Shown piece after piece: positions 7,138 through 39,445 of a stretch of DNA of 64,000 nt. The DNA comes from an uncultured Treponema sp. Lineage in GTDB: Bacteria > Spirochaetota > Spirochaetia > Treponematales > Treponemataceae. Where the stretch lies: NCBI RefSeq assembly GCF_945873775.1, contig NZ_CAMCEC010000004.1, forward strand, positions 1 to 64,000, given 5' to 3'. Position 1 is the stretch's first letter, and each line of letters begins with the position of its first letter. A program made the translations under genes and the position numbers. The notes beneath the pieces are model-generated. The model made no database searches. It worked only from the letters and a program-made list of their open reading frames with translations, and had not been told where the DNA came from.

Positions 7138-7236
7138 TTTATTCGCTGTTTCTTTTGAATGCTTGGCATTACTAGAAAACTTTTTTTTTCTATAGTATGA
7201 TATGTTTGTCTTAGAAATTTCCTTTTGGCGATTTTT

Positions 7237-7327
7237 AGATGAAATATCTTATATCAACTGCGCATCTTCATTTGATTGCGGATGTGCTTAAAAAGTCAAG
7301 ATTTTTTTTGTTGGCTTTTTATGGGAG
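7237..7327 (+). promoter_or_regulatory. Putative structured leader RNA (copy 1) before dtxR-argH
   Basis: P1: GCGCATC (7260-7266) pairs with GATGTGC (7281-7287) around loop TTCATTTGATTGCG. After TT, P2: AAAAAGTCAA (7290-7299) pairs with TTGGCTTTTT (7311-7320), its 3' arm ending 2 nt before the GGGAG ribosome site. A small AGATG/TATCT hairpin precedes P1. The same order, loop and junctions recur at 31242-31349 with compensatory changes in P1, which argues for a conserved RNA structure. Function, ligand and direction of control are unknown; position suggests control of translation initiation. Confidence 0.6.
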
Positions 7328-7333
7328 ATTCAA

Positions 7334-7708
7334 TTGTCGGAATTACACGAGTCTGGTGAAGATTATCTTGAGGCAATTCTTAGATTAAAAGAAGAAAATG
7401 GAGTTGCAAGATCCGTTGATGTTGCAAAACGTCTTGGTGTTTCCAAGCCTAGTGTAAGCCGGGCGATGAGCATTTTGGGCGAAAATGGATATATTACAAC
7501 TGGCCACATCGGTTCTCTTGAGCTTACTGAAAAAGGTCAAAAAAAAGCCGAGTCCGTTTATGCGCGCCATGTTCTTCTCACAGATTTCCTTGTAAAAATT
7601 ACTGGCGTTGACAAAGCTCATGCTGAAGAAAATGCGTGCAGAATTGAGCATGACATTGATGAAGATATAAAAGACGGAATTCAAAAGTGGATGGAGCAAA
7701 ATAAATAA
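7334..7708 (+). CDS. DtxR/MntR-family metal-dependent repressor
   Basis: A 124-aa transcription factor: N-terminal winged helix (DVAKRLGVSKPSVSRAMSIL is the recognition helix region) and a metal-binding dimerisation domain, with no SH3 extension. Residues His79, Cys102, Glu105 and His106 (ACRIEH) fall at the very positions used by DtxR for metal coordination, so binding of Fe2+ or Mn2+ is plausible; which metal cannot be read. Start is TTG with GGGAG 6 nt upstream. It ends 1 nt before argH, so the two are co-transcribed behind the structured leader. Why a metal regulator is linked to argininosuccinate lyase is not evident. Confidence 0.85.
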   Translation: MSELHESGEDYLEAILRLKEENGVARSVDVAKRLGVSKPSVSRAMSILGENGYITTGHIGSLELTEKGQKKAESVYARHVLLTDFLVKITGVDKAHAEENACRIEHDIDEDIKDGIQKWMEQNK

Positions 7709-7709
7709 A

Positions 7710-9149
7710 ATGTCAGACATAAATGAAAAAAATCACGGCACATTGACTGGCGACAACCATGCTGCTCTTTGGAGCGGAAGATTTGCAGAAGGACCAGATG
7801 CCGCTGCGGTTGAGTTTGAGACTTCTATCCGTGTTGATGAAAGAATGGCTCTTGATGACATTCACGGTTCGATTGCACATGCGCAAATGCTTGACGAGCA
7901 GAAAATAATTTCAAAATCAGAAAGCTCTGAAATTGTAAAAGGCTTAAAATCGATTGAAAAGGATTTGCTTTCCGGCGAGTTGAAAATTGACTATAGTGCT
8001 GAAGACATTCATTCATTTGTCGAAGCAGTTCTTACAGACCGCATCGGTGAGCCTGGAAAAAAACTTCACACAGGACGCAGCCGAAATGACCAGATTGCAC
8101 TGGACGAGCGTCTTTATTTGCGCCGCATGATTCCTTGCATTCAAAATGAAATTTTAACTCTTATAAAGGCACTTTCAGAAATCGCTTCTAAAAATAAAAA
8201 ATCTTTGCTGACTGGTTATACTCACATGCAGCATGCTCAGCCGGGAACTTTGGCTCAGCATCTTTTGGCGTGGGCTTCTATGCTAGTGCGCGACTGGGAG
8301 CGTCTTGAAGATTCACTTAAGCGCATTGAAAAGTCTCCGCTTGGATCTGGAGCTTTGCAGGGAAGCACATTGCCTCTTGACCGTGAGCTTGTTGCAAAAA
8401 AACTTGGATTTTCTGGTGTTACTGAAAATTCATTGGACACAGTTTCTGACAGAGATTACTGCATAGAATTTACTTCGGATTTTGCGCTGCTTCAAAGCCA
8501 CTTGAGCCGGATGTGCGAAGAAATTGTTTTGTGGTCAACAACAGAATTTTCATTTGTTGAGCTAAGCGAAAAATGGTCAACTGGCTCTTCAATTATGCCG
8601 CAGAAAAAAAATCCAGACTTTGCTGAATTAATCCGCGGAAGAACAGGAAAAGTTTACGGAGATTTGATAAATCTTCTTACAATGGTAAAAGGGCTTCCGC
8701 TTGCTTATGACCGGGATTTGCAGGAAGACAAAGAGCCTTTGTTTGATGCTTTTGACACTGTTGAAGCGAACTTAAAAGTTTTTACGGCAATGGTTTCTTC
8801 TGCAAAATGGAATCTTGAAAAAATGGCGGCGAGCTGTGAAGGCGGTTTTGCAAATGCCACGGATTTGGCTGAATATCTTGTGCGCAAAGGACTTCCGTTT
8901 AGAACTGCGCATGGAGTTTCGGCAAAAGCTGTCCGCATGGCAATTGATGCGGGGCTTTCAAAAATTGAATATTTGTGCGTGGAAGAATTTAAAAAATGCT
9001 CGCCTTTAATTGAAGATGACGTTTATGAAATTCTTTCGCCTGAAGCCTGCGTGGAAAACAGAAAGACAATCGGTGCGCCTTCTTCTGAATCAACTTCAGT
9101 TCAAATAAAAGCTTTGCTTGCGTTCTGTAAAAAAAGCTTAAAAAAATAA
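7710..9149 (+). CDS. argH: Argininosuccinate lyase
   Basis: A 479-aa member of the fumarase/aspartase superfamily that splits argininosuccinate into arginine and fumarate, the last step of arginine biosynthesis; acts as a cytoplasmic homotetramer. Motifs: LHTGRSRNDQIALDERLYLR, TGYTHMQHAQPGT (catalytic His region) and the superfamily signature GSSIMPQKKNP at about residues 292-302, whose serine loop carries the catalytic base. Length is typical. It follows the DtxR-like gene by one nucleotide and has no other arg genes nearby, so it may use imported or distally made precursors. Confidence 0.95.
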   Translation: MSDINEKNHGTLTGDNHAALWSGRFAEGPDAAAVEFETSIRVDERMALDDIHGSIAHAQMLDEQKIISKSESSEIVKGLKSIEKDLLSGELKIDYSAEDIHSFVEAVLTDRIGEPGKKLHTGRSRNDQIALDERLYLRRMIPCIQNEILTLIKALSEIASKNKKSLLTGYTHMQHAQPGTLAQHLLAWASMLVRDWERLEDSLKRIEKSPLGSGALQGSTLPLDRELVAKKLGFSGVTENSLDTVSDRDYCIEFTSDFALLQSHLSRMCEEIVLWSTTEFSFVELSEKWSTGSSIMPQKKNPDFAELIRGRTGKVYGDLINLLTMVKGLPLAYDRDLQEDKEPLFDAFDTVEANLKVFTAMVSSAKWNLEKMAASCEGGFANATDLAEYLVRKGLPFRTAHGVSAKAVRMAIDAGLSKIEYLCVEEFKKCSPLIEDDVYEILSPEACVENRKTIGAPSSESTSVQIKALLAFCKKSLKK

Positions 9150-31187: not shown

Positions 31188-31199
31188 ACTTAGGAGTGT

Positions 31200-31238
31200 A
31201 ACAAAAACTTTGACTGAAATAGCGTCAAAGTTTTTGTT
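31200..31238 (+). terminator. Strong terminator after nhaC
   Basis: AACAAAAACTTTGAC pairs perfectly with GTCAAAGTTTTTGTT (15 bp) around a 9-nt loop. The U-tract is inside the 3' arm rather than after it, so it may stop transcription from either side or act mainly as an RNA 3' stabiliser. Confidence 0.7.
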
Positions 31239-31241
31239 CAC

Positions 31242-31349
31242 AAGTTTGCGTTGCAAACTTCTTGTTGATTGCATATTCTCATTTCATTGCGAATATGCTT
31301 AAAAAGCCAAATCGAAAGTTTATACTTTCTCATTGACTTTTTATTGGAG
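31242..31349 (+). promoter_or_regulatory. Putative structured leader RNA (copy 2) before uraA-upp
   Basis: First hairpin: AAGTTTGC (31242-31249) pairs with GCAAACTT (31253-31260). P1: GCATATT (31271-31277) pairs with AATATGC (31292-31298) around loop CTCATTTCATTGCG. After TT, P2: AAAAAGCCAA (31301-31310) pairs with TTGACTTTTT (31333-31342) with one C-A mismatch, enclosing a GAAAGT/ACTTTC hairpin. AT and then TGGAG follow before the uraA ATG. Loop, junctions and the position relative to the ribosome site match copy 1 at 7237-7327. No promoter is obvious between the nhaC terminator and this motif. Confidence 0.6.
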
Positions 31350-31354
31350 TAAAA

Positions 31355-32650
31355 ATGTCTAATGATAATTTAAATGCGGTTTATGATGCGCGCACTTTGG
31401 GAAAGCCTAGAATGCTTGCGCTTGGTGTGCAGCACATGTTTGCAATGTTCGGCGCAACGGTTCTTGTTCCGCAGCTTACGGGGCTTAGCGTTTCTTCTAC
31501 GCTTTTGTTTGCCGGAATCGGAACTCTTATATTTCACTTTTTTACAAAAGGAAAAGTTCCGGCTTTCTTAGGCTCGTCTTTTGCGTTTCTTGCCGGCTAC
31601 ATGACAATCGCCCCGAATGGTGAAAAACATCTTTTGCCTTATGCATGTCTTGGCGTTGCTTGTTCTGCGGCTTTGTATTTTCTGCTTGCTGTTCTTGTAA
31701 AAGTTTTCGGTGTAAAAAAAGTAATGCGCTTCTTTCCGCCGGTTGTTACAGGTCCGATTATAATTTCGATTGGACTTACGCTTTCACAGTCGGCAGTAGA
31801 CAATTGTTCAAGAAACTGGCTTGTCGCTTTTTCTGCGGTTCTTGTAATTGTTGCCTGCGTTATCTGGGGAAGGAGAATGATAAAAATTATTCCGATTCTT
31901 CTTGCGGCTGTCGTTTCTTATGTCTTTGCAGGAATTCTTGGCGAAGTTGATTTCACATCTGTAAAAAACGCGGCTTGGATTGGACTTCCAGTTATTAAAG
32001 AAAACACTGTTTTTGCAATTTTTGAAAATCCCGACACTTCATTAATTATAACTTCCATAGTTACGATTGTTCCGATTGCGATTGCAACCATGATGGAGCA
32101 CATCGGAGACATTGCCGCCATTTCATCAACTGTGAACAGAAATTATTTTGAAAATCCCGGACTTCACAGAACACTTTTGGGAGACGGACTTGCAACTCTT
32201 GTAGCTTCACTTTTCGGCGCGCCTGCGAACACGACTTACGGCGAAAACACTGGCGTTCTCACTTTGTCAAGAGTTTACGATCCGCGTGTAATCAGAATTG
32301 CGGCAGTGATTGCGATTTTGTTTTCGTTCTCTCCAAAATTTGCGGCGTTAATAAGCGCGATGCCAGCTGCAACTTGCGGCGGAATTTCAATTGTTCTATA
32401 TGGAATGATTTCCGCAGTCGGCGTAAGAAATATTGTTGAAAGCCAAGTTGATTTCAAGGATTCACGCAACGTAATTATTGCGGCTCTGATTCTCGTTCTT
32501 TCAATCGGAATAAAATATAGTTCCGCTGGAGCTGTAAACATTCACATCGGCGGACTGACTCTCGGACTTTCTGGCTTGGCGACAGGAGCTTTGGTTGGAA
32601 TCATTTTGAATATGCTTTTGCCTGAAAAAAAGGCTTCGGAAAAAGAGTAA
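31355..32650 (+). CDS. uraA: Uracil permease (NCS2 family)
   Basis: A 431-aa membrane transporter of the nucleobase-ascorbate family with 14 expected helices, probably a uracil/H+ symporter. Motifs: LGVQHMFAMFGATVLVP (helix 1 QHxFAMFGAT), MMEHIGDIAAISS with the substrate-binding Glu, and GAPANTTYGENTGVL, the NCS2 signature. Uracil specificity over xanthine is supported by the next gene, upp, which traps imported uracil as UMP. Ribosome site TGGAG follows the structured leader. Confidence 0.92.
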   Translation: MSNDNLNAVYDARTLGKPRMLALGVQHMFAMFGATVLVPQLTGLSVSSTLLFAGIGTLIFHFFTKGKVPAFLGSSFAFLAGYMTIAPNGEKHLLPYACLGVACSAALYFLLAVLVKVFGVKKVMRFFPPVVTGPIIISIGLTLSQSAVDNCSRNWLVAFSAVLVIVACVIWGRRMIKIIPILLAAVVSYVFAGILGEVDFTSVKNAAWIGLPVIKENTVFAIFENPDTSLIITSIVTIVPIAIATMMEHIGDIAAISSTVNRNYFENPGLHRTLLGDGLATLVASLFGAPANTTYGENTGVLTLSRVYDPRVIRIAAVIAILFSFSPKFAALISAMPAATCGGISIVLYGMISAVGVRNIVESQVDFKDSRNVIIAALILVLSIGIKYSSAGAVNIHIGGLTLGLSGLATGALVGIILNMLLPEKKASEKE

Positions 32651-32653
32651 TTT

Positions 32654-33289
32654 ATGGAAAATAAAAATGTAGTTTTTTTAAATCATCCGTTGATTCAGCA
32701 TAAAATTTCGATGCTCCGTGATGAAAAAACTGGAACAAATGAATTCAGAAAACTTGTTGAAGAAATTGCAGTTTTGATGGGATACGAAGCTTTGCGGGAT
32801 CTTCCAGTTGAAGATGTTGAAGTAAAAACTCCGATTGAAGTTTGCAAAACGCCGATGCTTTCTGGAAAAAAACTTGTTGTTGTTCCGATTCTTCGCGCCG
32901 GACTTGGAATGATGAACGGAATGCTGACTCTTGTTCCTTCCGCAAAAGTCGGGCACATTGGTTTGAGCCGCAATGAAAAAACTCATCAGGCTGAAGAATA
33001 TTATTGCAAAATGCCGGATTCTCTTGATCAGCGTCAGATTGTAATTGTTGATCCTATGCTTGCTACTGGAGGCTCTGCTGTTTCCGCAGTTGATTTTATA
33101 AAAAAGCGCGGCGGAAAAAACATAAAATTTATGTGCATAATTGCAGCTCCAGAAGGCGTTGACGTTCTGACAAAAGCTCATCCTGATGTAAAACTTTACA
33201 TTGGCCACCTTGACCGCTGCCTGAATGAAAACGCATATATTTGCCCTGGTCTTGGAGATGCTGGCGATAGAATTTTTGGAACAAACTGA
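32654..33289 (+). CDS. upp: Uracil phosphoribosyltransferase
   Basis: A 211-aa salvage enzyme making UMP from uracil and PRPP. The PRPP loop [14 protein letters not shown] and the uracil-binding C-terminus [23 protein letters not shown] are complete, as is [11 protein letters not shown]. It lies 3 nt after the permease stop, giving an import-and-trap pair. Length matches the family. Confidence 0.96.
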
Positions 33290-39294: not shown

Positions 39295-39369
39295 TGTCAT
39301 TATCGGGCTTGACCCGATAATCTATTGAAAATTTTCAACAGATTCCAGTGTCGTAGCACGGGAATGACA
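39295..39369. repeat. 75-bp palindromic element with TGTCATT/AATGACA ends
   Basis: Begins TGTCATT, contains the perfect inverted repeat ATTATCGGG-CTTGA-CCCGATAAT, a central TTGAAAATTTTCAA palindrome, and ends with GGGAATGACA. An outer pair TCGAGTTTTATAAT (39278-39291 region) and ATTATCAAAACTCGA (39385-39399 region) flanks it. Same family as 13722-13790. Located in the 389-nt gap between groES and the sigma factor gene. Confidence 0.7.
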
Positions 39370-39445
39370 CTTAAACTACTGTCATTATCAAAACTCGATA
39401 TTTGGGCTGTTTATTTTATTTTTTTTCTTGCTTTTTTGTATGACT

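Follow-up and report, generated by a model that had tools for sequence, protein, structure and literature searches.

The conserved stem-loop in the leaders of dtxR-argH and uraA-upp very probably belongs to a short mobile repeat of Treponema, modular and non-autonomous, whose insertion point is immediately 3' of the GGAG in a Shine-Dalgarno (SD) sequence. The window, i.e., the whole stretch of 64,000 nucleotides that was analysed, from an uncultured Treponema sp., contains two copies of this repeat. They belong to an interspersed family that has a covarying fold, is placed on SDs in a single orientation, has precise empty sites and inserts in tandem into the SD of another copy. Short mobile repeats are common in bacteria; the surprising part here is the use of the SD as a target together with its replacement. 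The family is real, structured and apparently undescribed: a literature search covering papers available without subscription found no earlier account of the Treponema repeat, of an SD-targeting element or of one that also supplies a new SD.

Architecture and fold of the repeat

Both stem-loops of the preliminary description are found in the sequence where they had been placed (Table 1), and the feature is bigger than first noted, i.e., the uraA copy begins at position 31197 and includes two extra hairpins, with a second GGAG upstream. The family of copies was located by BLAST, with the uraA leader as query against the window's genome (G000). The complete repeat is about 155 nt long and is composed of four hairpins in the order A-B-C-D. 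It starts, after a GGAG, with hairpin A, (N)TGTAATAAAAAC...GTTTTTATT, a terminator-like palindrome in which stem changes between subfamilies are compensated (e.g., GTAAGATAAAACCG/CGGCTTTATCTTAC). Hairpin B (AAGTTTGCGTTGCAAACTT) is followed by hairpin C, which is the conserved-loop stem noted originally, and by hairpin D (AAAAAGTCAA/TTGACTTTTT), which harbors a covarying inner hairpin. The right end is formed by hairpin D and AT(G)GGAG (ATGGGAG).

Table 1. Positions of the two copies of the repeat in the window, their parts and the genes behind them, and of tandem arrays
Feature	Position	Strand	Description	Basis
Copy 1, before dtxR-argH	7249..7327	+	hairpins C + D + terminal GGAG; 5'-truncated or decayed	
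Hairpin C, copy 1	7260..7287	+	7-bp stem, 14-nt loop; GCGCATC 7260-7266, loop TTCATTTGATTGCG 7267-7280, GATGTGC 7281-7287	sequence; fold z -3.8
Hairpin D, copy 1	7290..7320	+	AAAAAGTCAA 7290-7299 / TTGGCTTTTT 7311-7320	sequence; fold
Right-end GGAG, copy 1 (SD of dtxR)	7324..7327	+	6 nt to TTG start at 7334	
dtxR-like gene (Fe-dependent repressor)	7334..7708	+	124 aa	Pfam PF01325, PF02742
argH (argininosuccinate lyase)	7710..9149	+	479 aa	Pfam PF00206, PF14698
Left GGAG beside copy 2	31193..31196	+		sequence; empty/filled comparison at other loci
Copy 2, before uraA-upp	31197..31349	+	complete A-B-C-D ending in GGAG	BLAST family in own genome
Hairpin A, copy 2	31200..31238	+	AACAAAAACTTTGAC / GTCAAAGTTTTTGTT, terminator-like	sequence
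Hairpin B, copy 2	31242..31260	+	AAGTTTGCGTTGCAAACTT	sequence; terminator-like by scan
Hairpin C, copy 2	31271..31298	+	GCATATT 31271-31277, loop 31278-31291, AATATGC 31292-31298	fold z -5.1; covariation
Hairpin D, copy 2	31301..31342	+	arms AAAAAGCCAA 31301-31310, TTGACTTTTT 31333-31342; inner hairpin GAAAGT/ACTTTC	sequence; inner-stem covariation
Right-end GGAG, copy 2 (SD of uraA)	31346..31349	+	5 nt to ATG at 31355	
uraA-like permease gene	31355..32650	+	431 aa	Pfam PF00860
upp (uracil phosphoribosyltransferase)	32654..33289	+	211 aa	Pfam PF14681
Tandem arrays	G064 C1:864485-864940 (L147); G103 C12:22728-22973 (L128); L076; L082			

The dtxR copy has no hairpin A, at most a remnant of B and no inner hairpin in D; the stretch 5' of its hairpin C may be a decayed hairpin B, and the copy is, as judged from its sequence, an old and shortened one. 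Partial copies are also found elsewhere (A only, A+B, A+B+C), and within one genome two different left halves are joined to the same C+D. In T. porcinum (G103), the copies L129, L131-L133, L136, L138 and L143 carry extra modules (AGTCAAGGCTTTAAGCGACAGCGTGCCTTGACT, AAGGTTTAATACAAACCTT) between A and B, and the joining of this subfamily to the C+D of simpler copies is read as module exchange. At one locus of the window's genome (L044, C20:22746-22778), hairpin A stands by itself, with a near-perfect duplication (TATGGGAGAAAG) on its flanks, and is possibly the minimal inserted unit. A transcription-terminator scan called hairpin B only, not A; both hairpins may terminate transcription from upstream genes. 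A search for promoters inside the element gave one weak sigma-70-like site per leader, the same as in shuffles.

Hairpin C of both window copies folds far better than shuffled sequences, and the two copies are recovered by covariance models. Model R1 gave 69.8 bits for the dtxR copy and 100 bits for the uraA copy. The independent model R2, built from 26 copies that are all of other genomes, found two sense loci in the window, at 31260-31349 (98.3 bits) and 7249-7327 (65.8 bits, E 1.4e-12), where the next-best sites are an antisense overlap at 30.7 bits and noise below 19 bits. In hairpins C and D of these 26 copies, 98.6% of the pair cells are standard pairs, and 100 double-change cells are observed vs 29.6 ± 4.7 in shuffles, which bears out the earlier claim of a covarying stem. 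The loop motif alone, when two mismatches are allowed, occurs in the window about as often as chance predicts (5 found vs 5.3 expected); it is the structured element and its family that stand out. A search of Rfam at the curated gathering score returned only two tRNAs for the whole window, and permissive settings gave no meaningful match at 7150-7400, in line with the original statement that the element fits no known riboswitch class.

A fold that is selected in mRNA is expected to favor G-U over A-C among its mismatches. Across 105 distinct copies, which are related and thus not independent, there are 38 G-T and 39 A-C mismatches, or 35 and 23, respectively, when the weak inner pairs of hairpin C are left out. 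This comparison, which is rough given the relatedness of the copies, lends no support to selection at the RNA level. Between the window's genome and its close sibling G107, the stem of the dtxR copy remains intact through G-U/G-C and U-A/U-G changes. Such wobble-path changes are neutral between an RNA and a mobile-repeat reading, and strong stem covariation beside a ribosome site is not sufficient to call a riboswitch.

Placement on Shine-Dalgarno sequences and empty sites

The covariance models find many further copies directly 5' of start codons. In 106 of 118 strong sense copies, the final GGAG is followed within 15 nt, with a mode of 5-7 nt, by the start of a reading frame that either has 60 aa or more or runs unbroken to the contig end, compared to 17.6% of random positions that pass the same test. 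With a stricter test the numbers are 103/118 for the copies and 169/937 (18%) for the full set of GGAG sites within 219 kb. Among the remaining 12 copies, at least six lead into another copy, two are followed by short reading frames (57-58 aa) and three lack a gene downstream. The copies are always in the sense orientation relative to the gene behind. These genes, which were named by inspection of their N-terminal sequences except for the Pfam-named genes of the window, are unrelated; they include genes for envelope and secreted proteins, ABC transporters, glycolysis enzymes (tpiA, pgk) and a sigma factor, as well as carB, dxs, galE, lexA, a gyrB-like gene, uraA and dtxR. The suggested carbamoyl-phosphate theme therefore falls, as no theme is common to the genes behind the copies. 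Nor is the element conserved at orthologous genes, since most uraA and dtxR orthologues in other species are without it, while the sibling G107 has both copies.

These observations bear on the initial proposal of a new cis-regulatory RNA class, i.e., a leader that acts as a riboswitch or binds a protein and in this way controls how the downstream gene is translated. The covarying stems, the conserved loop and the position adjacent to the SD agree with such a function, as does the stem that the sibling's dtxR copy has kept; the fold, the further copies and the placement at start codons thus stand. The identity as a regulatory class does not, and is highly improbable: the genes behind are unrelated, the element is absent from most orthologues, modules are freely lost, and there are precise empty sites and tandem copies, described below.

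Empty alleles were searched for in four genomes using the joined flanks of 20 copies as queries. In sibling genomes, a single intact SD is found where the filled allele reads GGAG-element-GGAG, and about nine empty sites were resolved (L213, L217, L220, L223, L224, L225, L226, L228 and L229). For example, an empty GTAAAGCTAGGAGAAATATATG corresponds to a filled GTAAAGCTAGGAGA-element-GGAGAAATATATG, and an empty AATTTTTAAAAGGAGTGGAAAATTTATG to an element copy after AAAAGGAG. The pair L217/L262 is clean, with GGAG common to both junctions; in the clean pairs L228/L264, L223/L285 and L213/L277 the common sequence is GGAGA, and in L220/L273 and L220/L265 it is GGAGG. At L225/L276 the target had only AAGAGG, yet the filled right end is ATGGGAGG; the right GGAG therefore belongs to the element. 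In tandem arrays, which have a period of about 156-183 bp, each further copy lies in the terminal SD of the copy before it. With the empty/filled pairs, the target rule can be put to a direct test.

From these comparisons a simple sequence of events can be proposed. After insertion directly 3' of a GGAG, the old SD would remain at the left edge of the element; under the empty-site model, the GGAG at 31193-31196 is such an ancestral SD of the target. The role of the SD would pass to the GGAG that closes the element on the right, which lies at the usual distance from the start codon, and therefore the gene should still be translated. The predicted accessibility of the SD is 0.49 with the element vs 0.32 with the native flank (40 copies), a weak hint that expression is kept. 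A host could survive the insertion of an SD-replacing element even in its essential genes, and such an element would exchange the 5' leaders of many genes in one go.

The junctions share usually 3-5 bases, up to 7-8 in others, and 13 and 19 at two sites; a target-site duplication of fixed length was not found, as the shared length varies between sites. In 17 of 56 distinct junction pairs at least two further bases after the GGAG are shared, vs about 5.6 expected from shuffled pairs, and some target sequence is therefore often duplicated. The two long matches are found at L229/L269 (13 bases) and L224/L260 (19 bases), where the left arm of hairpin A resembles the SD and start region of the target. 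This likeness may bear on target recognition, and simple joining at GGAG does not account for these two sites.

The short direct repeats at the junctions, including the excess of 1-3 shared bases after GGAG, as well as a short imperfect terminal similarity (ATAAAAAC / ATAAAAAG), are what an ordinary MITE moved by a cut-and-paste transposase would display. Such an element would insert anywhere and survive only in SDs because it brings its own SD, i.e., through selection rather than targeting. This explanation is unlikely, since harmless intergenic insertions in either orientation should then survive as well, whereas only about 3 of the 118 copies lie away from both a gene start and another copy; in addition, the length of the repeats varies and at one site the right-end GGAG did not come from the target. 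The near-absence of copies off SDs could nevertheless in part reflect selection. The preliminary description had itself set its proposal against a mobile repeat scattered irrespective of gene starts; the marks of a mobile repeat are indeed present, but the copies are tied to gene starts, a combination that had not been foreseen.

Inserted copies possibly have a regulatory effect. A more far-reaching version, in which the element actively targets translation-initiation sites (GGAG plus start region) and the four-hairpin leader serves as a transferable 5' UTR, insulating or regulating the gene behind and wiring dozens of genes into a common response as it spreads, is considered doubtful.

Distribution and candidate movers

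With model R1, the element is detected in 86 of 196 Treponema genomes, in a patchy distribution with no clear pattern. The number of copies per genome ranges from 1 to at least 22; these counts are rough, as scoring stopped at 22 per genome and strong copies add a weak antisense match, and they may err in either direction. The window's genome has at least 11 strong copies, and many near-identical copies are found within single genomes. A DNA search outside the genus found the element in 0 of 23 genomes of the order. The exact B+C pattern gave 41 matches in a species-wide genome collection, all in Treponema or Spirochaetaceae/Spirochaetales records, including T. porcinum, T. berlinense, T. parvum, T. 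vincentii and T. socranskii; there was no match in IMG/VR viral contigs, and only short chance matches in a plasmid collection.

None of three candidate protein families tracks the element. A Y1 transposase is found in 12 of 33 element-rich genomes vs 49 of 163 others, an IS110 (DEDD) transposase in 11/33 vs 53/163 and a reverse transcriptase (RVT_1) in 11/33 vs 44/163. When genomes with any copy are compared to those with none, the reverse transcriptase shows a weak trend (32/86 vs 23/110, p 0.016, uncorrected). The window's genome has no Y1 match, and several rich genomes are without a Y1/RAYT-type protein. Separately, a cluster of near-identical IS110-family transposase genes was observed within about 110 kb of one genome (G168 C1:737377-847913).

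The lack of an associated mover family would fit a process without any transposase, in which leader modules pass from the SD region of one gene to that of another through recombination or template switching. Module swaps, such as the two left halves found on the same C+D, and the two junctions with 13-19 shared bases point in the same direction. The single orientation and the precise GGAG edge argue against this process, as does the insertion of whole units of about 155 nt at sites that share only 3-5 bases, and it is regarded as quite improbable, slightly more so than the ordinary MITE.

For the mobile repeat inserting at GGAG, a putative trans-acting enzyme that recognises the ends of the element by their hairpins, probably in the form of folded single-stranded DNA, and links the element to GGAG by a logic like that of IS200/IS605 is tentatively put forward; it is favored because hairpins are found near both ends, a tetranucleotide is found at both edges and the orientation is fixed. 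In IS200/IS605 elements, a tetranucleotide flanks the left end and an equivalent tetranucleotide ends the right end (PMC6006769). The Treponema repeat resembles these elements (Y1 TnpA) and their non-autonomous derivatives in its end-near hairpins, its single orientation to the target and its GGAG on both sides, the right one being element-borne in at least one site. It differs from them in the Y1 distribution given above, in that the feet of its hairpins yielded no recognisable guide tetranucleotide with complementarity to GGAG, and in that its target is a ribosome-binding site and its direct repeats are short, sometimes longer.

REP palindromes carry tetranucleotide tags at one end (PMC3733652, PMC8266576). 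The Treponema repeat shares with REP/REPIN sequences and their RAYT (TnpA-REP) a palindromic, multi-copy nature and a location outside genes; in contrast, it is composed of four unlike hairpins in fixed order, placed in one orientation on SDs, and is abundant in several genomes without a Y1/RAYT-type protein.

Other bacterial repeats offer looser parallels. The BOX elements of Streptococcus pneumoniae and other modular bacterial MITEs are, like the Treponema repeat, short modular repeats before genes with a variable make-up, and their mover is unclear; sequence and phylum differ, and neither insertion into SDs nor delivery of a replacement SD is known for BOX. Integron attC sites are also imperfect folded sites between genes, but this identity was ruled out by eye, as the core pair RYYYAAC/GTTRRRY is absent and the copies lie before scattered chromosomal genes rather than in cassette arrays. 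A group II intron was likewise ruled out by eye, from the length and the lack of a domain V-like hairpin.

The flank query used to find empty alleles also brought up two other repeats. A short dispersed palindromic repeat, GATTCCCGTGTCGTAGCACGGGAATGACA, is located at 39329-39375 of the window, with many more sites in the window's genome and in G107. A further dispersed intergenic repeat, CCATGGCTCACCGCTAACGCAGAGTT-like, is found in the window's genome at C4:99540-99638, C24:6828-6945 and C35:15815-15925, and is sometimes located just 5' of the SD-targeted element.
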